Below, one piece after another: positions 6,836 to 46,966 of a stretch of 64,000 nucleotides of DNA. This DNA comes from Poriferisphaera corsica (GTDB lineage: Bacteria > Planctomycetota > Phycisphaerae > Phycisphaerales > Phycisphaeraceae). The position numbers and the translations under genes were made by a program. The stretch lies in assembly GCF_007747445.1 (NCBI RefSeq), contig NZ_CP036425.1:4014175-4078174 (forward strand), given 5' to 3'. The notes under the pieces are model-generated. The model had not been told where the DNA came from and searched no databases. It saw nothing but the letters and a program-made list of their open reading frames with translations. How positions within the stretch are numbered: position 1 is the stretch's first letter; each line of letters starts with the position of its first letter.

Positions 6836-7750
6836 TTATTCTGTGACGGGTTTCTGGTCAGCATTTTGCTCTGGTTGTACGTGTTCTTTTTCTTGCTGCT
6901 CTTTGTAGGCTTCATAGTAAAAGGGAACGGGCTTTTGCTCGGTAGTTTGCTCGAGTGATTGCTGCTGGGTTGTGTTTAGTGGGGTGGGCTGAATTTGCAG
7001 TGGCTGAATAGGCGAGGAAGAAGGAGGGATAGGTGCTGCGTTTTGCGGGGTTGGTTGTTGTTGCGAGAAGGGGATGGAGTTTTGGTTATATGCGGATTCA
7101 GTGTTGGTGCGTTGACCGGTGAGGAGGCCTTCACGAGCGGGGAGTTCTTGTGTGAAGAGTGTTTGGGGATTGCGATCGATGACGAGGTTGCGGTAGGCGC
7201 CGAAATTAGCGGTGGGTGTGGAGATTGGGCGTGGTGTATTTTCGGGTTGACTGGTGACGAGTGGTGAGAGGTAAAGTTGGGGGTTACCAACGGTTTGGGG
7301 GTTGATGTAGTTGCCGCGTTCGTTGGCGATGAAGGAGTCGGGCTGAGAGTATCGCGAGGCGAGGCCGGAGGCGTCGAGATTGGTGAAGCCGGTGCCGAGC
7401 ATGCGGAAGTCGTTGACACCGAGGCCGCCGGTGACGCCGGGGATGCCGAAGAGTTGGTTGCGGTTGTAGAGGATGCCGCCGCTACCTCCCGCGGAAGAGC
7501 CGTAAGCGTTACCACCTGAGACACGCTGGTTGGCGTAGAGGCCTGCGGAGGCGGGGCCGCCGCCTTCGATGCGTTGACCGGTCGATGGGGCGTAGCTACC
7601 AGGCGCGTAAACGCTTGGATTGTACTGTGCGGGGTTGGCAGTTCCACCGGGGCCGGCTGCGTTGCCCGCGGGGAGTTGGGCCTGGAGTTGGGGTGCAACA
7701 ACGAGAGAGAGTATCGATGTGGCGGCAAAGATGGTTACGCGATGATTCAT
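6836..7750 (-). CDS. Secreted Gly/Pro/Gln-rich protein of unknown function
   Basis: No family recognised. The 304-residue product starts with a signal peptide (basic start, hydrophobic FAATSILSLVVA, cleavage after AQA-like residues). A low-complexity Gly/Ala/Tyr region follows, then a central stretch mentioning FRMLGTGFTNLDASGLASRY, and a Gln/Pro-rich C-terminus ending in a charged EQQEKEHVQPEQ tail. The ATG at 7750 has an AGGTG ribosome site; an in-frame start three codons upstream is less likely. The composition suggests a disordered periplasmic or surface protein. Confidence 0.65.
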   Translation of the reverse strand: MNHRVTIFAATSILSLVVAPQLQAQLPAGNAAGPGGTANPAQYNPSVYAPGSYAPSTGQRIEGGGPASAGLYANQRVSGGNAYGSSAGGSGGILYNRNQLFGIPGVTGGLGVNDFRMLGTGFTNLDASGLASRYSQPDSFIANERGNYINPQTVGNPQLYLSPLVTSQPENTPRPISTPTANFGAYRNLVIDRNPQTLFTQELPAREGLLTGQRTNTESAYNQNSIPFSQQQPTPQNAAPIPPSSSPIQPLQIQPTPLNTTQQQSLEQTTEQKPVPFYYEAYKEQQEKEHVQPEQNADQKPVTE

Positions 7751-8075
7751 ATCAAGCACCTATCTGATCGTTAGACTGTAATGAATGTACGTATAGCTCG
7801 CGGGATGGGCTGTGAGGAATGATAGGCAGGCAGAGAAGGGATATTCAGGGGATGTGTATTTATAACAAAGTACGACGGCAAATAGGCATCATTTCCTGAG
7901 TATACGAGGTGATTACCCTATTTTTTATGGTTGTTATGGGATGATGCGAAAAAGTGATTGCTCTGGAAAAACGAAGCCATACACTGGCGAATGTCGTGTT
8001 GTTGCGATTGTATTTGTTGCGGATTGGTGATGGGGAGGAGGAGGGGGGGGAAGCAAAACGTCTGGGAGCAAGTTG
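7751..8075. other. Divergent intergenic region without a recognisable gene
   Basis: This must hold the promoters of the flanking divergent genes. A G-tract lies at 8043-8050, just before the heparinase ribosome site. No repeat of the window families is present and I see no RNA gene. Confidence 0.5.
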
Positions 8076-9881
8076 ATGGCATATCTTGATACGTTGAAAA
8101 TGGATCACCCGAGGTTGATGTTGCATGAAGAGCGGGTTGATCGGATGAGGCATTGGCTTCGGCCAAAGACGTTCGTACAAAGGTGGTATGCGTATGTGAA
8201 GAAGGAGGCAGATGAGCTGCTTGAAAGTGATTTGTTAGTGTATGAGTTGCCGGACGGGTTACGTCTTTTGGATGTATCGCGAGAAATGGTAAGGCGGGTG
8301 TATGCGTTGGGGTTAGCGTATCGGGTTGGCGGCGAACGAAAATATGGCGAGCGGCTTGTTGCGGAGTTGCTACAGGTGTGCGGGTTTGTGGATTGGAATC
8401 CGAGGCATTTTCTGGATGTGGCGGAGATGTTGCATGGGGTTGGGGTTGGTTACGACTGGGTTTATGGATTGCTTTGTGAAAAGGAGGAGCGGCTAATTCG
8501 TGCGGCGATTATTGAGAAGGGGTTGCGGCCAGCGCTTTGGTGTTATGAGCATGGGGACGAGCTGGAGAATCGGTGGACGCGAGATATAAATAATTGGAAT
8601 CAGGTTTGTAATACGGGGATCGTGATTGGCGCATTGGCGGTGGCGGATAAGGAAGGTGAGGTTGCTGAACGGGTTTTGGAAAGAGCGGTGAGCGCTTTGC
8701 CGATTTCGTTAAAACAGTTTGAGCCGGATGGCGGATGGTTTGAAGGGCCGATTTACTGGCGGTTTGCGTCGGAGTATACGTGCCATTTTTTGGCGGCAAT
8801 GAATAGCGCGTTAGGACATGATGGGGGTTTGGGTGAGTTGCCGGGGCTGAGCGAGACGGGAACATTTTTGGTTTATATGACGGGGCCAAGCGGGAAGTAT
8901 TTTAATTTTGCGGATGGACATGAAGAGCTGATTGGGACGCCGCAGATGTTGTATATGGCGGAAAGATATGGTCAGCAGATGTATGCGGCTCATCATATTC
9001 AGAAGGGCGAGATGAGTGAGACTGATTTGATGTACTGGCATGAGGGATTGGAGAAATTAAATGGAGGAAGATATGAGGAGGCGATGCGTGGGGTTGATTT
9101 GGACAAAGTTTTTGAGCCTTGCAATGTGGTAAGTATGCGATCGTCGTGGGAGGATGATGCGATGTATGTGGGGATGAGTTTTTCAAATAATGGATTGTCG
9201 CATACGCATTTAGATATGGGATCGTTTGTGCTGGATTATGGCGGGGAACGGTTTGCGACGGAATTGAATGCGGATGACTACAACGCACCGGGTTTTTTCA
9301 CCAAAGAGCGGTATTGCTTTTATCGTAATCGGGCGGAGGGGCATAACACGTTGGTGGTAGATCCGGTGGTAGGGGATTTAGAGAGGGATCGGGATGATGG
9401 AGGGATAATGGAGCCGGATCAGAATTTGCCGGAGCGAGGGACGTCGATGAAGGCGGAGTTGATGGAGTTCAAGGCGGATGATGAGCGGTGTGCTGTGAAG
9501 GTCGATTTGAGTGCGGGGTATGAGCCGCGGCTGAAACGGTTTGAGCGTAAGATGCGGTTGGAACGAAAAGCAAAAGAAGTTGTCGTGACGGATTGGGTGG
9601 AGTCGGATGAAAGCAGCGATGTCTATTGGTTTATGCATACCGAAGCTGAGGTTGTGCTACATCATGAGGGGAGGCGAGCAATATTGCGGCGTAATGGGGT
9701 TAATCTGGTGGCGGAGGTATTGAAGCCTGACGGGGCGGTGTTTCATGTGCGAAAGGCGGAGGGGTTTGATCAGAACCGGACTCGGGGCGAGAAATCGAAC
9801 GAGGGATATCGAAAGCTAGCAGTGCTGTTAAAAACGGTCATGAGAGAACAGGTTGTGGTGCGGTTTCGAGGGATTGAATAA
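8076..9881 (+). CDS. Heparinase II/III-family protein (polysaccharide lyase-like)
   Basis: Predicted uronate-polysaccharide lyase of 601 residues with the two-part architecture of the family: an N-terminal alpha/alpha toroid (roughly residues 1-340, with RDINNWNQVCNTG holding the catalytic-region Asn) and a C-terminal beta-sandwich beginning with the conserved THLDMGSFVLDYGGE block and the AEGHNTLVVD block. No signal peptide is visible, so it would act in the cytoplasm on imported oligosaccharides unless exported another way. The ATG at 8076 follows a GGGAG ribosome site by nine bases; the frame also offers a TTG three bases earlier. Substrate (alginate, heparin-like or other) is not predictable by eye. 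Confidence 0.82.
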   Translation: MAYLDTLKMDHPRLMLHEERVDRMRHWLRPKTFVQRWYAYVKKEADELLESDLLVYELPDGLRLLDVSREMVRRVYALGLAYRVGGERKYGERLVAELLQVCGFVDWNPRHFLDVAEMLHGVGVGYDWVYGLLCEKEERLIRAAIIEKGLRPALWCYEHGDELENRWTRDINNWNQVCNTGIVIGALAVADKEGEVAERVLERAVSALPISLKQFEPDGGWFEGPIYWRFASEYTCHFLAAMNSALGHDGGLGELPGLSETGTFLVYMTGPSGKYFNFADGHEELIGTPQMLYMAERYGQQMYAAHHIQKGEMSETDLMYWHEGLEKLNGGRYEEAMRGVDLDKVFEPCNVVSMRSSWEDDAMYVGMSFSNNGLSHTHLDMGSFVLDYGGERFATELNADDYNAPGFFTKERYCFYRNRAEGHNTLVVDPVVGDLERDRDDGGIMEPDQNLPERGTSMKAELMEFKADDERCAVKVDLSAGYEPRLKRFERKMRLERKAKEVVVTDWVESDESSDVYWFMHTEAEVVLHHEGRRAILRRNGVNLVAEVLKPDGAVFHVRKAEGFDQNRTRGEKSNEGYRKLAVLLKTVMREQVVVRFRGIE

Positions 9882-41456: not shown

Positions 41457-42608
41457 TTAGAATGTATTTTGTTTTCTCAAAGAAAGTGATTTGAGATTGA
41501 GATTAGCAAGGGTTTTTGCGATTTTGAGGCCTGCATTACCGGAGCCATAGGGATGGGTCATGCGGGAGAGGTTTAGCGTGAGCGCTTTATCTGCAGCGGT
41601 AAGGACGGGCTTGATGCCGTAGGGAGAATCAATCACGGAGCGGGGTTTTTCGCGGCCATTCTGGCGAGGGCCGATATTGACTGCAGGTGTTTTTAGGGCG
41701 GCGGCTTCGATCAGGGCGGCGGAAGAGTTTCCGAGGATGAGTTTGGCGTTCTTAAGATGGGCAAGGAACTGAGGGCGAGGTAGATGTGTGAGATGTGTAG
41801 TATTACGATTTGCTTGAGGCTTTTTCATGAAAGAATCAATAGCGGTGTTGATGCCGGTTGTGCCGGGATCAGCATTGGGTGAGAGTATGAGGATTTTAAA
41901 GTTGTGCTGTTGAGCAAGTTTGCGAGCGGCTGAAAGGGTTTGCGCCATGTGGGATTGCTCTTGCTTTGGTGAGTCTCCGACAGGATGCTGCAAAACAATG
42001 ATATCTGTGGAGCTTTCTATCTGATGGATAGATAAAACGAGATCGTCGATGGATGGAGAGCCGTGGAGATGGATGGTGCTAGGTAACTCGCCGAGCTTTC
42101 TTATGCGCGTGGCGGATTGTTTGGAGGCGGGGAAGTGGATGTGGGCCAATTTGGTGATGGCGTGACGCATGGATTCATCGGCGATCCCTTCTGCGCGATC
42201 GCCGCCATGGATATGGGCAAGGTGTATGTTTGAGATTGCGGCGGCGGAGGCGGCGGCGAAAGCCTCGATGCGGTCGCCGAGAACGAGGACGAGGTGTGTT
42301 GGGTGTGAGGCGAAATCTGTTGCGAACGAAGCAATTCCACGAGCTAGAGCTTGTGCATCAGCTGCGTAGCCGGAATCATTCTTAGTCTGCATGCGAACTT
42401 TTGCGTCTATTTGAAAATCTGATTTGAGAATATCTTTGTATGAACCGGTCGTCAGATGTTGTCCGGCGGCAATGAGACGTAGCTGCAGCTTTGGATGTGC
42501 GCTGATCGCGGCGATTACAGATCGAAGGAGGCCGAACTCTGCGCGTGTGCCGGTCACGACGGTGATGTACTTTGTTTGTTTGGAGGTAGGGCGTGTTGTA
42601 TTTGTCAT
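41457..42608 (-). CDS. neuC: UDP-N-acetylglucosamine 2-epimerase (hydrolysing), NeuC type
   Basis: Predicted to convert a UDP-N-acetyl amino sugar to the free 2-epimer, the first committed step toward a nonulosonic acid. The 383 residues begin with VVTGTRAEFGLL, then IAAGQHL, LVLGDRIEAFAAA, AHIHGGDRAEG, HGSPSIDD, and the C-terminal LILGNSSAALIEAAALKTPAVNIGPRQNGR-like block typical of NeuC/NnaA/LegG enzymes. It is the last gene of a four-gene operon, nine bases after the CMP-sugar synthetase. Whether the product is sialic, legionaminic or another acid cannot be read from sequence; no neuB-type synthase is in the window. Confidence 0.85.
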   Translation of the reverse strand: MTNTTRPTSKQTKYITVVTGTRAEFGLLRSVIAAISAHPKLQLRLIAAGQHLTTGSYKDILKSDFQIDAKVRMQTKNDSGYAADAQALARGIASFATDFASHPTHLVLVLGDRIEAFAAASAAAISNIHLAHIHGGDRAEGIADESMRHAITKLAHIHFPASKQSATRIRKLGELPSTIHLHGSPSIDDLVLSIHQIESSTDIIVLQHPVGDSPKQEQSHMAQTLSAARKLAQQHNFKILILSPNADPGTTGINTAIDSFMKKPQANRNTTHLTHLPRPQFLAHLKNAKLILGNSSAALIEAAALKTPAVNIGPRQNGREKPRSVIDSPYGIKPVLTAADKALTLNLSRMTHPYGSGNAGLKIAKTLANLNLKSLSLRKQNTF

Positions 42609-42617
42609 GACTAATCG

Positions 42618-43328
42618 TTAAATAGATTGGCGCTGATCTGAGAGAATCGCTTCGGCGATTTTTAGGTCAATGGCAGTGTCGATATCCACAACATCGTGAG
42701 GCTGTGTGATGATGGCACGACGATCTGAGCCGAGGAAAGCATGGGGCTGATCGGGGCTGGTTGTCTGTAGCGATTGACGTGTGAGTGCAATGACACCGCC
42801 ATCAAGCATATAGACTGGGGGGAGATCTTGCCGGCGGTAGATATTGTTGTCTTGGTACATGAGAAGGCGAGAGTCGTCGTCAACACGCTTCATCCAATAG
42901 GGATGATTCTTCTCGACAGGATAGACTGATTGAACTGAATCACAATTAGTTTCGGTAAGCTTGTTGATAGCACGATCTGTTAGATCGTGAGGACGTACCG
43001 GCACATTACCATATAGAATGGCGATACAGCCGAAGGTTAGGCTGGTTTGTTTTTCGTACTCCGTCAAAGCGTGGCGGGCGGCTGCGTCCACTGTTGCGGT
43101 CGAGGTTGCGAGATCGTCTGGTCGTAGGATCGTTGGGATATTGTTATGTTTGGCAATTTGGGCGAGATGAGGGCCATCGGTACTGAGGATGGTGTGTGTA
43201 ATAGATGTTGAGGCGAGCGCGTGATCGAATGTGTATTGCAGCATAGGCTTGCCGGCGAGAATGAGGCCGTTCTTGTTGGGGAGACCTTGAGAGCCTGCAC
43301 GGGCGAGGATAATGGCGAGTGTATTCAT
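42618..43328 (-). CDS. neuA: Acylneuraminate (nonulosonate) cytidylyltransferase
   Basis: Predicted CMP-sugar synthetase activating a nonulosonic acid with CTP. The 236-residue protein has the N-terminal P-loop-like LARAGSQGLPNKN followed by LILAGKPMLQYTFDHA, the STDGPHLAQIAK block, LRPDDLATSTATV, an ILYGNVPVRPHDL segment corresponding to LQPTSPLR, and YMLDGGVIALTR and a final DVVDIDTAIDLKIAE. These are hallmarks of NeuA/PseF/LegF. The LQPT motif is altered (LYGN), so the substrate may not be sialic acid. It sits 21 bases after the SPASM-fusion gene and 9 bases before the NeuC-type gene. Confidence 0.85.
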   Translation of the reverse strand: MNTLAIILARAGSQGLPNKNGLILAGKPMLQYTFDHALASTSITHTILSTDGPHLAQIAKHNNIPTILRPDDLATSTATVDAAARHALTEYEKQTSLTFGCIAILYGNVPVRPHDLTDRAINKLTETNCDSVQSVYPVEKNHPYWMKRVDDDSRLLMYQDNNIYRRQDLPPVYMLDGGVIALTRQSLQTTSPDQPHAFLGSDRRAIITQPHDVVDIDTAIDLKIAEAILSDQRQSI

Positions 43329-43349: not shown

Positions 43350-45017
43350 TTAAGGACGAAACCATTCAGAACAAGAGGCGCAGAGTTTATTGCAATCAAA
43401 GCAATGCTGCGTGTGTGATGCATAAATGGTGAATTGCGATTGCCAGAGTTCTAAAAGCGGCTGCTGAGACATATTGCCTAATGGAGATTGGGCGGTGATA
43501 TCCTGATCGCATTGAAGAACGGAGCCGTCAGAAAGAATTGTAAGGCGGTTGGCAAGCTGACTGCATGGTTTACGCTTAGGAGGTTGCATGGGAACCGGGG
43601 AGAGATCGGGGAGCTTGCCAATGGCGGTCTGGAAGGGGCGGATAAGGGCATGCTTCGCGTGATACATCCAGCGTGCAAAAAAACTGTCCATATCCTCAAG
43701 ATTAAGCTTTGTCTTTAGAAATGAGGGGATGATCCATGGGATAAAGGCGGGGTTGAAATCTCGCTGACGTTGGAGGCGGGTATTGAGAAGACTTTCAATG
43801 TTAAAGAAAGGCGTGTTGTAATCTGATGAGTTCATGACACGCTGGTAGGCTTGCTCAGAATCCGCGTTGAGGTTTGTGATGAGCAAGTCGATGGGGAGAT
43901 CATGAAGCGAGGCGAGTTGATCTGGGTTGTTGATATGCAGATCGGTTTCAAGTGCGATGCCGAGAACACCGGCGTCATGAGCGGCGATGATGATTTCTTT
44001 GTATTGAGGATGAAGAAGTGAATCGCCAACACCTGCAAATGTAAGCACAATGTCGTTGTTGGGATCAACGGCAATCTGTTTAATCACTTTGTGTGCGTGA
44101 TCAATCGTGATCGGCTCACGGTCGGGGGTGATGTAGTGCTGAACAGTGAGCGGGCCATCTAACGATCGATTAGGCGTAAGCTCTAATGTTATCTGCTGAG
44201 GCAGGGACTGGTAATGAAGCAGCGGATTGGAGGTTTCGATTTCGTTGGCCGCGGTGGCAATTTGCAGATTTGTTGCGGAGATGAGTGATTTGCCGAGATG
44301 GCTGGCGAGCTGGTTGACGAGCGCGACTGATCGGGCGGTGTCATAGACAAAACGGCGGTTGCAGTCGCGAACAGCGGGAGGAATGGCGATATTCGCATCA
44401 CGTGAGATGGGGTCGAGCATCGGCTGACTGTGAGAGTAGCCGAGGATTTGACCAAAAGAGGCGTTGTGGTCGGTGAACTGCTGAAATGTTGACTGTGAGG
44501 CGATGTAACCTGCCAACCCGGGAGGGGATTGGGTGAAACAGAAACGAAGCGCTTCAGGCGCTTCGCGATGTCGTGTGATCAGCTGTGAGGCGGATTGAAG
44601 ATCGAAAAGTGGCCAATCGGCACGAACGATGAAGGCGGCGTCTTGTTTGTAATGAGCTAAGGCGTCGGCGAGAGGTTTAGCGGGAAGCGATTCATCAAAG
44701 ATGGATGACCAACCGAGACCGCCTCGCCATGCGGTGAGTGCCCACTTACGACCAGATTGCCAATTGCGATGCGTAACGTTTGGCGTGTGATTGTGAGGAA
44801 AGTAATACAGCGGTTTATCGATGCTTGTGGTAATGAGCGATTGAGGTGCTTGGGATTCAGGGTGCACAATGATAATCTGATCTATCTCTGGAATAGAGGC
44901 GAGCCGCGTTAATGTGATATCAAGAATGGTGCGATCCAAAAGTTCATCGGCGATACGAGAAGGGAGGCCGAGGAAGGAATGCTGTGTGTCAGCGATAATG
45001 ATAGCGGGGAAAGACAT
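43350..45017 (-). CDS. SpsF-like nucleotidyltransferase fused to a radical-SAM-like domain lacking its cluster cysteines, plus SPASM domain
   Basis: The 555-residue protein has three parts. Residues about 1-215 resemble SpsF-type nucleotidyltransferases (FPAIIIADTQHSFLGLPSR, ILDITLTRLASIPEIDQIII). Residues about 270-450 follow the radical-SAM/SPASM barrel pattern: ITLELTPNRSLDGP where the family has a strand plus CxxxCxxC, then VLTFAGVGDSLLHPQYKEII, which matches the GGEPLLHP block. The three cluster-binding cysteines are absent. The C-terminal 80 residues keep a SPASM-type Cys set (KPCSQLANRLTILSDGSVLQC, HCFDCNKLCASC). ATG 45017 has GGAG upstream; a TTG at 45053 would overlap the maf stop. 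The operon partners point to flagellin glycan synthesis. Catalysis by the middle domain is doubtful. Confidence 0.75.
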   Translation of the reverse strand: MSFPAIIIADTQHSFLGLPSRIADELLDRTILDITLTRLASIPEIDQIIIVHPESQAPQSLITTSIDKPLYYFPHNHTPNVTHRNWQSGRKWALTAWRGGLGWSSIFDESLPAKPLADALAHYKQDAAFIVRADWPLFDLQSASQLITRHREAPEALRFCFTQSPPGLAGYIASQSTFQQFTDHNASFGQILGYSHSQPMLDPISRDANIAIPPAVRDCNRRFVYDTARSVALVNQLASHLGKSLISATNLQIATAANEIETSNPLLHYQSLPQQITLELTPNRSLDGPLTVQHYITPDREPITIDHAHKVIKQIAVDPNNDIVLTFAGVGDSLLHPQYKEIIIAAHDAGVLGIALETDLHINNPDQLASLHDLPIDLLITNLNADSEQAYQRVMNSSDYNTPFFNIESLLNTRLQRQRDFNPAFIPWIIPSFLKTKLNLEDMDSFFARWMYHAKHALIRPFQTAIGKLPDLSPVPMQPPKRKPCSQLANRLTILSDGSVLQCDQDITAQSPLGNMSQQPLLELWQSQFTIYASHTQHCFDCNKLCASCSEWFRP

Positions 45018-45049: not shown

Positions 45050-46966
45050 TCAAGCGGGCTGTGGGGATTGATGTTGAATGAGAGCGTGGGATAGACGCTG
45101 CATTGCCTGTTCGAAGATTGTGATGGCTTCATCACAGGATTGAACAATCCAGTCGAGGTTTTCAGCATCACGTTCAAGCTGCTTGTATTGCCTTTCATAG
45201 GGATCGTTTGTCGTTATTTCGAGAAGACGATCTTTCTTTTGCCGCTTGTAAGCGCCGAGGACGTTTAGTTTGGTGATGAGATTGAATGCGTGGGCGAGAT
45301 CATTGGTGGCGTGCTCACGTTGCTCGGTTAATTGGTCAAAGAGGCGAACCATCTTGGCTTTGTTTCGCTGATTTTTCATCATGTCTTCGATAGTGGCGAT
45401 GGTTTGAACCGTTGTCTGGCGAAGCTCGTTGATATCTGTCATGCGGTTGCCGATTTGTTTTTCGACCTCAGACAGACGATCGGAATCGAGGTGCGTGCTG
45501 GGAAGTGGGATTGAGGGGGTTGGTTCTGTCGCGTGTTTTTCGAGTGATTCTGCAAAAGGCATGGCGATGGTATGCTCTTTGGGGAGTCCGCCTTCTGTGG
45601 CATCAATGATGGTTTGCGGGGCGTTTGAGAAGTCACGCTCGAATTGTTTGTGGTAGGTGGCCATTTGTTCATCGGTGTAGATTGTGCGGCCGTGATGGTC
45701 GGTTGCTTCGCGTAGATGGCCACGCATGCGCATGACACGGATGTACTCCATCATTTCGATTGTGTTGTGAGCGTTGATTTCGGATGACCAGACTTGGTGG
45801 ACAGCGGTGCCGGGTGCGTAGTAGAGGCCATCGGAAAAGGCGAGATCTTGGCCGATGAACATGATGGGGTCACAGCCGATGTATTGAGCGAGATAGAGAG
45901 AGAGATGCGCGACGGTTCCGCCGGCTGGGAGAGAATCTTTGGGCGTGGCCATATCGCCGAGCAGAACGTCATTAAATTCATTACTTAAGGTGCGAACTGG
46001 GCCGGGGTAACTGTCGAGGATGGTACAGTGAGCTTTGGGTTCTGCGACAAGTGTGACGGTGGGGAGTGGGGGGAGGTCTTCGTAGAACCGGGCACTGATT
46101 TGTGAATAATCGAGTGCGGTGACGAAGTCGGGGGTGATGCCGCGATCGAGGAGTGGGCGGAGTGCGGTCTGAACGGCGATGACGATGATGTTTTTGCGAA
46201 TCTCTGGGTTTTGGAGGAGATGAACGTTTTTAACGAGTGATGGGCCGGCAGCAACACAGACTGCGGGGAAACCTTTGGCGAAGTCTTTGAGTTCGTTGAT
46301 GGATGCGCCCGCTGCGTAGAGTGGGAGATTGGCGGTGAGGTTTTCATGGGTGCGGAGATTATTCACCAGCGCGGTGGCGATGCATGTACGCGCGTAGGCG
46401 ACGATGTCCTTGGCGTGATTATTGAGCTCGGTGAGTTGCTCTGGGAAAAGGCGGCGATAGGCGGGGTGCTCGAAGAGACGAAGACCCTGCGTGATCGCGA
46501 ACGCGTAGGGTTCGACTTTGGTTTGGAAGGTTGTGCGATCGGGCTGGCCGGTGAAGATGATGAGGTGCTGGCGTGAGAGCCAGGGCGTATGGTCGACGTG
46601 CGTCAGCGCGACCAAAAGATTGGCAGGGTCTGGCTCCCAGACGATGAGCAGCCCTTTGGGGCCAAGTCTTTTGGAAACCTCAGCGACGTGGTAGCCGAGC
46701 CCGATGCCCATGACAAAGACGGTGGCGGACTCAGAATAGTCAACCTGATCGGCCATGCGCGTGGCTTCTTTAATGGGGTCGTACTTTGAGCAAAGCGCAA
46801 CGGCTTGGCCGTCTACAGTAAGTGAAGCTGCGGGCAGATCAGATTTTGAATCGGAGATCTTGAATGATTCAGCTGGCTGAAGATCAGCGAGCTCACATGC
46901 CAATTCCGGGGCATGATTCTTCAAGAGTGCGAGATTCAACGATAATATGTTTTGCTTGTTTAACAT
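45050..46966 (-). CDS. Motility-associated glycosyltransferase (Maf/DUF115 family)
   Basis: The 638-residue Maf-family protein would transfer nonulosonic acids to Ser/Thr of flagellin in the cytoplasm. It has the N-terminal Maf domain (TVFVMGIGLGYHVAEV, LLIVWEPDPANLLVAL) and the central DUF115 domain with AAGPSLVKNVHLL, IVIAVQTALRPLLDRGITPDFVTALD, and LPAGGTVAHLSLYLAQYIGCDPIMFIGQDLAFS-type blocks, which form the GT42/GT29-like Rossmann fold. A helical C-terminal region (LRQTTVQTIATIEDMMKNQR) follows. It is the first gene of the operon. Confidence 0.88.
   Translation of the reverse strand: MLNKQNILSLNLALLKNHAPELACELADLQPAESFKISDSKSDLPAASLTVDGQAVALCSKYDPIKEATRMADQVDYSESATVFVMGIGLGYHVAEVSKRLGPKGLLIVWEPDPANLLVALTHVDHTPWLSRQHLIIFTGQPDRTTFQTKVEPYAFAITQGLRLFEHPAYRRLFPEQLTELNNHAKDIVAYARTCIATALVNNLRTHENLTANLPLYAAGASINELKDFAKGFPAVCVAAGPSLVKNVHLLQNPEIRKNIIVIAVQTALRPLLDRGITPDFVTALDYSQISARFYEDLPPLPTVTLVAEPKAHCTILDSYPGPVRTLSNEFNDVLLGDMATPKDSLPAGGTVAHLSLYLAQYIGCDPIMFIGQDLAFSDGLYYAPGTAVHQVWSSEINAHNTIEMMEYIRVMRMRGHLREATDHHGRTIYTDEQMATYHKQFERDFSNAPQTIIDATEGGLPKEHTIAMPFAESLEKHATEPTPSIPLPSTHLDSDRLSEVEKQIGNRMTDINELRQTTVQTIATIEDMMKNQRNKAKMVRLFDQLTEQREHATNDLAHAFNLITKLNVLGAYKRQKKDRLLEITTNDPYERQYKQLERDAENLDWIVQSCDEAITIFEQAMQRLSHALIQHQSPQPA

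Follow-up and report, generated by a model that had tools for sequence, protein, structure and literature searches.

In the known SPASM enzymes of the radical-SAM type, an auxiliary cluster serves the SAM cluster, and the longer form of the SPASM domain contains seven cysteines. The radical-SAM/SPASM fold binds peptides in SuiB and anSME. BtrN, a dehydrogenase of antibiotic biosynthesis, is a radical-SAM enzyme that contains the SAM cluster together with one auxiliary cluster.

Maf is a flagellin glycosyltransferase that reportedly acts on flagellin prior to chaperone binding and export (PMC4065374). Another report describes a Clostridium Maf that modifies flagellin upon co-expression in E. 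coli, and calls the function of the N- and C-terminal domains of Maf unclear (PMC11339370). In Caulobacter, the flagellin glycosyltransferase FlmG is reported to obtain its specificity from an attached N-terminal flagellin-binding domain (PMC7591256).

Here, we describe a protein encoded beside maf in Poriferisphaera corsica, referred to below as the Maf-partner protein or partner. Our literature search, which reached little of the subscription literature, returned no paper that deals with this protein, a comparable Maf partner, or a Maf fusion, and the passages of PMC3438082 that were consulted contain nothing on the protein. We argue that the partner is probably a non-catalytic subunit dedicated to the flagellin glycosyltransferase Maf and serving in nonulosonate flagellin glycosylation.

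The Partner Gene and Its Neighbors

In the window, which is the whole stretch of 64,000 nucleotides that was analyzed, the partner gene is a single uninterrupted open reading frame (ORF) on the minus strand, with an ATG at 45017, a possible other start (TTG) at 45053, and a stop codon at 43350-43352 (Table 1). It is the single match in its own genome, a single contig of 4,291,168 bases. The maf gene lies immediately upstream on the same strand, with 32 nt between the maf stop and the partner ATG, and Pfam and NCBIfam matches show that maf adjoins nonulosonate activation genes. The first-pass annotation, made from the letters of this DNA, had correctly set the gene between maf and CMP-nonulosonate genes. 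It had read the product as an SpsF-like domain, a radical-SAM-like domain without CxxxCxxC, and a SPASM domain, and this architecture is borne out by the ORF, the AlphaFold2 (AF2) model, and the fold matches. Three features described below were not named in it: the fusion to Maf, a second loss of cysteines in the SPASM domain, and the NCBIfam relative TIGR04321.

Table 1. Coordinates of the partner gene, its domains, and its neighbors in the window.
Feature	Residues	Coordinates	Strand	Basis
Maf-partner protein: cytidylyltransferase-fold N-domain, radical-SAM barrel without cluster Cys, SPASM	555 aa	43350..45017	-	ORF and translation, Pfam, NCBIfam, AF2, fold matches
N-domain: SpsF/KdsB/IspD-type cytidylyltransferase fold, degenerate nucleotide-binding loop	1-246	44280..45017	-	Fold matches; loop compared with 6oew
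Well-conserved N-domain stretch	90-109	44691..44750	-	41 rows outside motif-pattern selection
Radical-SAM-type barrel, no CxxxCxxC	267-465	43623..44219	-	BtrN Z 23.1 over 267-555; alignment with 14 intact radical-SAM proteins
Loop expected to carry the [4Fe-4S] motif	283-300	44118..44171	-	Cys columns of intact proteins = R284, G288, T291
SPASM/twitch-like domain, C485, C503, C546, C549 (plus C539, C542)	480-555	43353..43580	-	PF13186; four Cys aligned with BtrN
maf, flagellin glycosyltransferase		45050..46966	-	PF01973 124.4 bits (cut-off 34.6); PF20157 33.4 bits (cut-off 23.5)
CMP-nonulosonate synthase-like cytidylyltransferase (PseF-like)		42618..43328	-	PF02348 E 2e-18; TIGR03584 PseF E 1.9e-26, under its cut-off
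NeuC-type UDP-GlcNAc 2-epimerase		41457..42608	-	TIGR03568 304.7 bits, cut-off 235.9 passed

The Radical-SAM Barrel and Its Missing Cluster Site

The Pfam Radical_SAM match of the window protein is weak (E 1.4e-3; 19.3 bits against a gathering score of 29.5) and begins beyond the cluster region, at profile position 29; TIGR04317 matches with E 8.4e-8. The AF2 model, built from an alignment of 46, has a pLDDT of 94.2 and a pTM of 0.93. In this model, residues 267-555 match BtrN (4m7t; 2.5 A, 233 aligned) at the Z-score given in Table 1, followed by SuiB, DesII, anSME, MoaA, and viperin (Z 18.9-21.6, 2.9-4.1 A, 232-275 residues). A partial TIM barrel is evident from the matches to MoaA (Z 18.9, 3.3 A, 244 residues) and viperin (Z 18.9, 2.9 A, 232 residues). 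Because of the model and the match to BtrN, the predicted barrel is a genuine radical-SAM fold. The structure comparison proposed in the first-pass annotation thus upholds its assignment, and a different fold for the middle domain is ruled out by the model and the fold matches.

Further relatives were collected by a pattern scan with an N-domain DNA motif as the sole selector. It listed 80 of the 119 matching stretches, 79 of the 80 carry the family, and 78 loci were scored, L144 (a short match) and L180 (a false pattern hit) being left out. A scan of genome contigs with the window protein alone found no relative. The plasmid tblastn search gave six radical-SAM-type matches, all from residue 260 on, and none of the six covers 80% of the query.

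The loop in which the cluster motif belongs was correctly located in the first-pass annotation, ITLELTPNRS being the cluster loop and FAGVGDSLLHPQYKE the GGE strand. The three-cysteine motif of radical-SAM enzymes is absent, with R, G, and T in its columns in the window protein, a variable loop, and no CxxxCxxC in the barrel of any of 93 de-duplicated family rows, all 93 of which have residues flanking the loop. Among the 78 scored loci, which come from the matches listed, 73 extend past the loop, and in none of these does the barrel carry the motif. The TIGR04321 profile finds 30 distinct loci across the phylum, 16 with the N-domain and 14 without; the barrel motif is present in 0 of the 16 N-domain loci versus 14 of the 14 stand-alone relatives. 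In an alignment with 14 intact proteins, R fills the first cysteine column in 28 of 41 rows and G the second in 22 of 41. The third column is mixed and the loop differs in length among the family rows, so that no alternative set of ligands is evident.

In a tree of 103 rows (quick IQ-TREE, SH-aLRT support), the family and 13 intact outgroup rows lie on opposite sides of one branch (97), and one loss of the cluster motif is therefore enough. The truncated rows L129, L118, and L164 were removed beforehand, as was L028 from the outgroup; the 13 outgroup rows were cut at their own CxxxCxxC, and the 14 stand-alone relatives of the TIGR04321 set constitute the unbiased control. A sequencing or frame fault that hides the cysteines is ruled out because the loss is common to the relatives. 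The first-pass annotation had also raised the question of whether the loss is lineage-wide and always linked to maf: it extends to the whole family, and 68 of the 78 loci from the matches listed have maf either next to the gene or fused with it. Judged by the alignments and the predicted models, the barrel keeps its fold, whereas the cluster site for SAM cleavage is gone from each of the family rows that were examined. We infer from these sequences that the partner would perform no SAM chemistry.

Association of the Partner with Maf

Among 41 loci, namely the window and 40 chosen by hand with fusions over-represented, maf lies in the same ORF as the partner gene in 16 (16/41 is thus no frequency) and immediately precedes it in 22. 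The remaining three (L087, L088, L091) have no adjoining maf, but their genomes all encode a PF01973 protein elsewhere. The partner gene of L091 adjoins the FliS and FliD genes. PseF-like genes are present in 29 and NeuC-like genes in 27 of these 41 loci, although contig ends truncate some of them. The PseF-like and NeuC-like genes of L062 are separated by a NeuB gene (PF03102, E 2.6e-62), and the fullest gene order is therefore maf, partner gene, CMP-nonulosonate synthase, NeuB, and NeuC-type epimerase; no NeuB gene was found at the corresponding place in the window operon. In the 78 named loci of the pattern scan, again among the matches listed, the two genes are fused in 31 and adjacent in 37, maf is missing in three (L108, L132, L179), and the remaining seven have at most 1,500 bases of upstream sequence. 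L068, in which maf is in another frame, was counted as unfused, and L075 as fused with its Maf part cut short. At L084 (G028:C5), the partner gene is flanked on both sides by maf-like ORFs.

In the tree, fusion to Maf occurs in one clade of 39 rows (99) and, independently, in L092. These fusions rule out the partner as a hitch-hiker of the operon. By gene order and alignment, the partner is usually encoded right behind Maf and is a covalent part of it in one large clade. The pairing with maf, seen in many planctomycetes, and the physical fusion in this branch suggest that Maf and the partner, whose two enzyme-derived domains both look inactive, work as one machine. A few family members come from unexpected labels: L104 and L144 are on contigs labelled Limnohabitans and Verrucomicrobiia, and L177, a planctomycete-type fused gene, is labelled Leptolyngbya sp. 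PLA1, a label that is probably wrong. The label of L104 is doubtful, as it lies deep in the fused clade among planctomycete rows, and is probably a binning error.

The fused protein L111, which is 1199 residues long, was modelled by AF2 from 42 rows, with a pLDDT of 91.3 and a pTM of 0.86. Parts of this model align with Maf 5mu5 (Z 23.3, 7.1 A, 535 residues), 6oew (Z 20.2, 3.4 A, 223), MoaA (Z 19.4, 2.8 A, 243), and BtrN (Z 17.9, 3.2 A, 224). A pTM is no contact map, but one of this height suggests a defined packing of the two 600-residue halves.

Across 201 genomes of the order, 153 have both the partner and PF01973, three the partner only, five PF01973 only, and 40 neither, where a partner is a match with E < 1e-25, a line drawn after the list was seen. 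For flagellin (PF00669), the corresponding numbers are 149 with both, seven with the partner only, 13 with flagellin only, and 32 with neither. Those genomes without a match that the searches left unnamed (23 for PF01973, 19 for PF00669) were identified by their absence from the lists of matches. Among 294 genomes of the phylum, the N-domain was found in 31, every one of which is among the 63 with PF01973 (57 of the 63 over its cut-off), and 32 of the 63 have no N-domain match. A diverged partner in G180 (L092, L093) was not reported by the N-domain search. Because only the top candidates from a permissive initial pass are scored in these searches, absences are less certain than presences, and kinship among the genomes means that the counts cannot be treated as independent trials. 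The counts indicate that the partner accompanies Maf, yet Maf can exist without the partner. The presence of the N-domain in 31 of the 294 phylum genomes rules out a trait of one genus.

Seven genomes of genera g241 and g246 (G399, G296, G303, G417, G444, G449, G467) keep the partner and have no flagellin match. Their PF01973 match is weak (E 2e-5 to 7e-11), and in L075 (G399, 6968-9496, minus strand) a shortened PF01973 match lies in one ORF with the partner. The partner in these genomes may be a relic or part of a glycosylation system redirected to another protein.

The N-Domain

The NTP_transf_3 Pfam match of the window protein is weak (E 2.4e-3). The AF2 model shows the nucleotidyltransferase fold of SpsF and the CMP-sugar cytidylyltransferases, with residues 1-270 matching the Leptospira cytidylyltransferase 6oew (Z 21.8, 2.6 A, 214 aligned) and the N-domain matching KdsB 2y6p (Z 15.5, 2.8 A, 179 aligned). 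By comparison with 6oew, the basic loop QARMGSTRLPGK (QAR..GSTR..K) is not conserved in the family, and just 27 of 41 rows have D as the first acidic residue of GDCPLID (D134 in the window protein), so that the basic loop and GDxPL acidic motif of these enzymes are not retained across the family. As the alignments show, this is a nucleotidyltransferase domain without the canonical nucleotide-binding loop.

Other positions are well kept. In 41 rows that were not chosen by motif pattern, R90 and G167 are found in 41, R98 and G100 in 39, R222 in 38, W97, G99, and E109 in 37, D202 and D226 in 36, and D108 and P166 in 35. Sixteen N-domain positions are invariant in alignment A3, whose rows were selected by pattern, eight of them (R90, W92, W97-G100, D108, E109) being set or narrowed by that pattern. 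The domain thus looks like a retained binding site that has lost its catalytic loop. We prefer donor binding as its role, since the conserved residues stay while the catalytic loop is gone.

Surviving enzyme activity is the main rival because the same residues stay conserved. The N-domain would then produce or alter the donor sugar as an unusual nucleotidyl- or sugar-transferase, and the loss of activity would be confined to the radical-SAM half. The conservation of R90, R98, G100, D108, E109, G167, D202, R222, and D226 speaks for such an enzyme, as do the cytidylyltransferases as nearest folds and an operon that consists of nonulosonate genes. The loss of the 6oew loop, the first acidic residue that is D in only some rows, and the adjoining separate gene for a CMP-sugar synthase-like protein make it unlikely, and we retain the non-catalytic subunit as the preferred reading.

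The SPASM Domain and a Second Loss of Cysteines

The SPASM domain of the window protein (PF13186, residues 485-549) matches with E 2e-8 and 34.8 bits, over a cut-off of 21.5. Its C485, C503, C546, and C549 align with the four cysteines of BtrN and, with D506, are invariant in 16 diverged rows. The domain had been called intact; the four cysteines are indeed kept, and the form is the short, four-cysteine (BtrN/twitch-like) one. The extra cysteines C539 and C542 of the window protein are absent from most of its relatives and form with C546 and C549 a chance CxxxCxxC (residues 539-549; 43371-43403, minus strand). The only string of this kind in the window protein is C542-C546-C549. Similar strings in the SPASM tail are seen in L096, from the same genus, and in L137, which has the single CxxxCxxC string among the scored pattern-scan loci listed.

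The auxiliary-cluster ligands, present in the window protein, are missing in the fused clade of 39 rows, where none of the four cysteines is left in 29 rows, one in eight, and two in two (counts with a tolerance of two columns). The separate fusion L092 retains all four. Among unfused rows, all four are present in 45 of 50, three in L148, L128, and L068, one in L101, whose tail is apparently frame-shifted, and none in L078. Since L092 keeps four and L078 none, the loss tracks the fused clade and not strictly fusion itself; a sign test of fusion against cysteine loss has only two independent pairs. Mean pairwise identities for the N-domain, barrel, and SPASM domain are 0.396, 0.375, and 0.285 in 38 fused rows, 0.290, 0.316, and 0.366 in 49 unfused rows, and 0.393, 0.470, and 0.446 in the 15 closest unfused rows. 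These figures imply that the SPASM domain relaxed most after fusion while the barrel is still constrained. Judged by sequence, the Cys4 site of the unfused members probably holds one structural Fe-S cluster, which the fused clade would lack.

The four cysteines in 45 of the 50 unfused rows make a redox or Lewis-acid role possible there. A Cys4 cluster that performs chemistry, with the barrel used independently of SAM and the activity lost or replaced in the fused clade, would agree with the invariant cysteines and D506 in the diverged rows and with SPASM as the best-conserved part over the 49 unfused rows. We consider it improbable: the full site is missing in 39 of 39 fused-clade rows, the one modelled member of this clade keeps the barrel fold and the clade keeps Maf, and the SAM cluster that such an auxiliary cluster would serve is absent.

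Proposed Role of the Partner

The family-wide loss of the cluster cysteines, the operon and fusions with maf, the co-occurrence across genomes, and the fused model support a dedicated, non-catalytic Maf subunit. The first-pass annotation had offered two readings for flagellin sugar assembly: a sensor or scaffold without catalysis, which fits the loss and the maf linkage, or an enzyme with a new chemistry, which has become less likely with a fused clade that loses SPASM cysteines as well and a degenerate nucleotidyltransferase loop. A regulatory role, in which the partner would sense a nucleotide or CMP-sugar and tune Maf or flagellin output without being a structural part of a complex, would suit an N-domain with conserved residues and a lost catalytic loop, but the one-chain fusion to Maf and the pTM of the fused chain favor a direct mechanical role, and we regard it as the least probable reading.

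As a subunit, the partner would form a stable cytoplasmic complex with Maf ahead of flagellin export. The pseudo-radical-SAM/SPASM half may position or stabilize flagellin, and the pseudo-cytidylyltransferase half, in which R90, R98, G167, R222, and others are kept, may serve hand-over or control by binding a nucleotide or CMP-nonulosonate. The exact role would accordingly lie in acceptor docking or donor hand-over. In a bolder version, which we put forward tentatively, a double pseudoenzyme makes Maf a two-part machine: a dead CMP-sugar synthase domain would hand over CMP-nonulosonate and a dead radical-SAM/SPASM domain would dock flagellin, and one clade would have fused both to Maf and discarded the last metal site, a stepwise passage from enzyme to structural part.

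Several observations count against the subunit. About half of the PF01973-positive phylum genomes (32 of 63) have no N-domain match, and the Clostridium Maf that modifies flagellin upon co-expression in E. coli (PMC11339370) implies that Maf is not always in need of a partner. The conservation of R90, R98, D108, E109, D202, R222, and D226 resembles a working site, and among the 15 closest unfused rows conservation is higher in the barrel and SPASM domain than in the N-domain. Seven genomes have the partner and no flagellin match, and three members of each set, the 41 chosen and the 78 named loci listed, have no adjoining maf.

Comparison with Known Systems

A dedicated partner would offer a way to study how Maf recognizes flagellin and its donor. 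PF01973 co-occurs in 31 of 31 phylum and 153 of 156 order genomes with the partner, and the two are sometimes fused. FlmG and the pair of Maf and partner differ in transferase class, and the attached module of FlmG is of a type other than the domains of the partner; their likeness is one of analogy only. The Magnetospirillum Maf 5mu5, which matches the Maf part of the L111 model, represents the operon and fusion partner found here, although 5mu5 is Maf by itself. The SpsF-like 6oew is the closest solved fold of residues 1-270 but has its catalytic motifs intact. BtrN is the closest solved fold of residues 267-555, and its Cys4 site aligns with that of the partner; unlike BtrN, with its SAM cluster, the partner has a barrel without cluster cysteines. 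The family offers a series for a radical-SAM protein turning into a non-enzyme, with the SAM cluster lost family-wide and the auxiliary cluster lost in an inner clade.

TIGR04321 (spiro-SPASM) is the best family model for the window protein (E 1e-43 over residues 123-553), and each of the 46 members of alignment A2 is matched by it with an E-value no worse than 0.01. The window protein differs in that its 149.8 bits stay below the curated cut-off of 250, which was passed in none of the 294 phylum genomes, and residues 1-122, including the WRGG motif, fall outside the match. The name suggests a family from spirochetes. Its NCBIfam listing gives no function, and the partner suggests one to test for these spiro-SPASM relatives. 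TIGR04347, a pseudo-SAM/SPASM model (pseudo_SAM_Halo), is a precedent named as "pseudo" that 13 of the 46 A2 members match (best E 1.4e-9); we know of no cytidylyltransferase domain or link to Maf in it. The kind of protein is thus already known, with TIGR04347 naming pseudo-SAM/SPASM proteins and TIGR04321 covering relatives of the partner.
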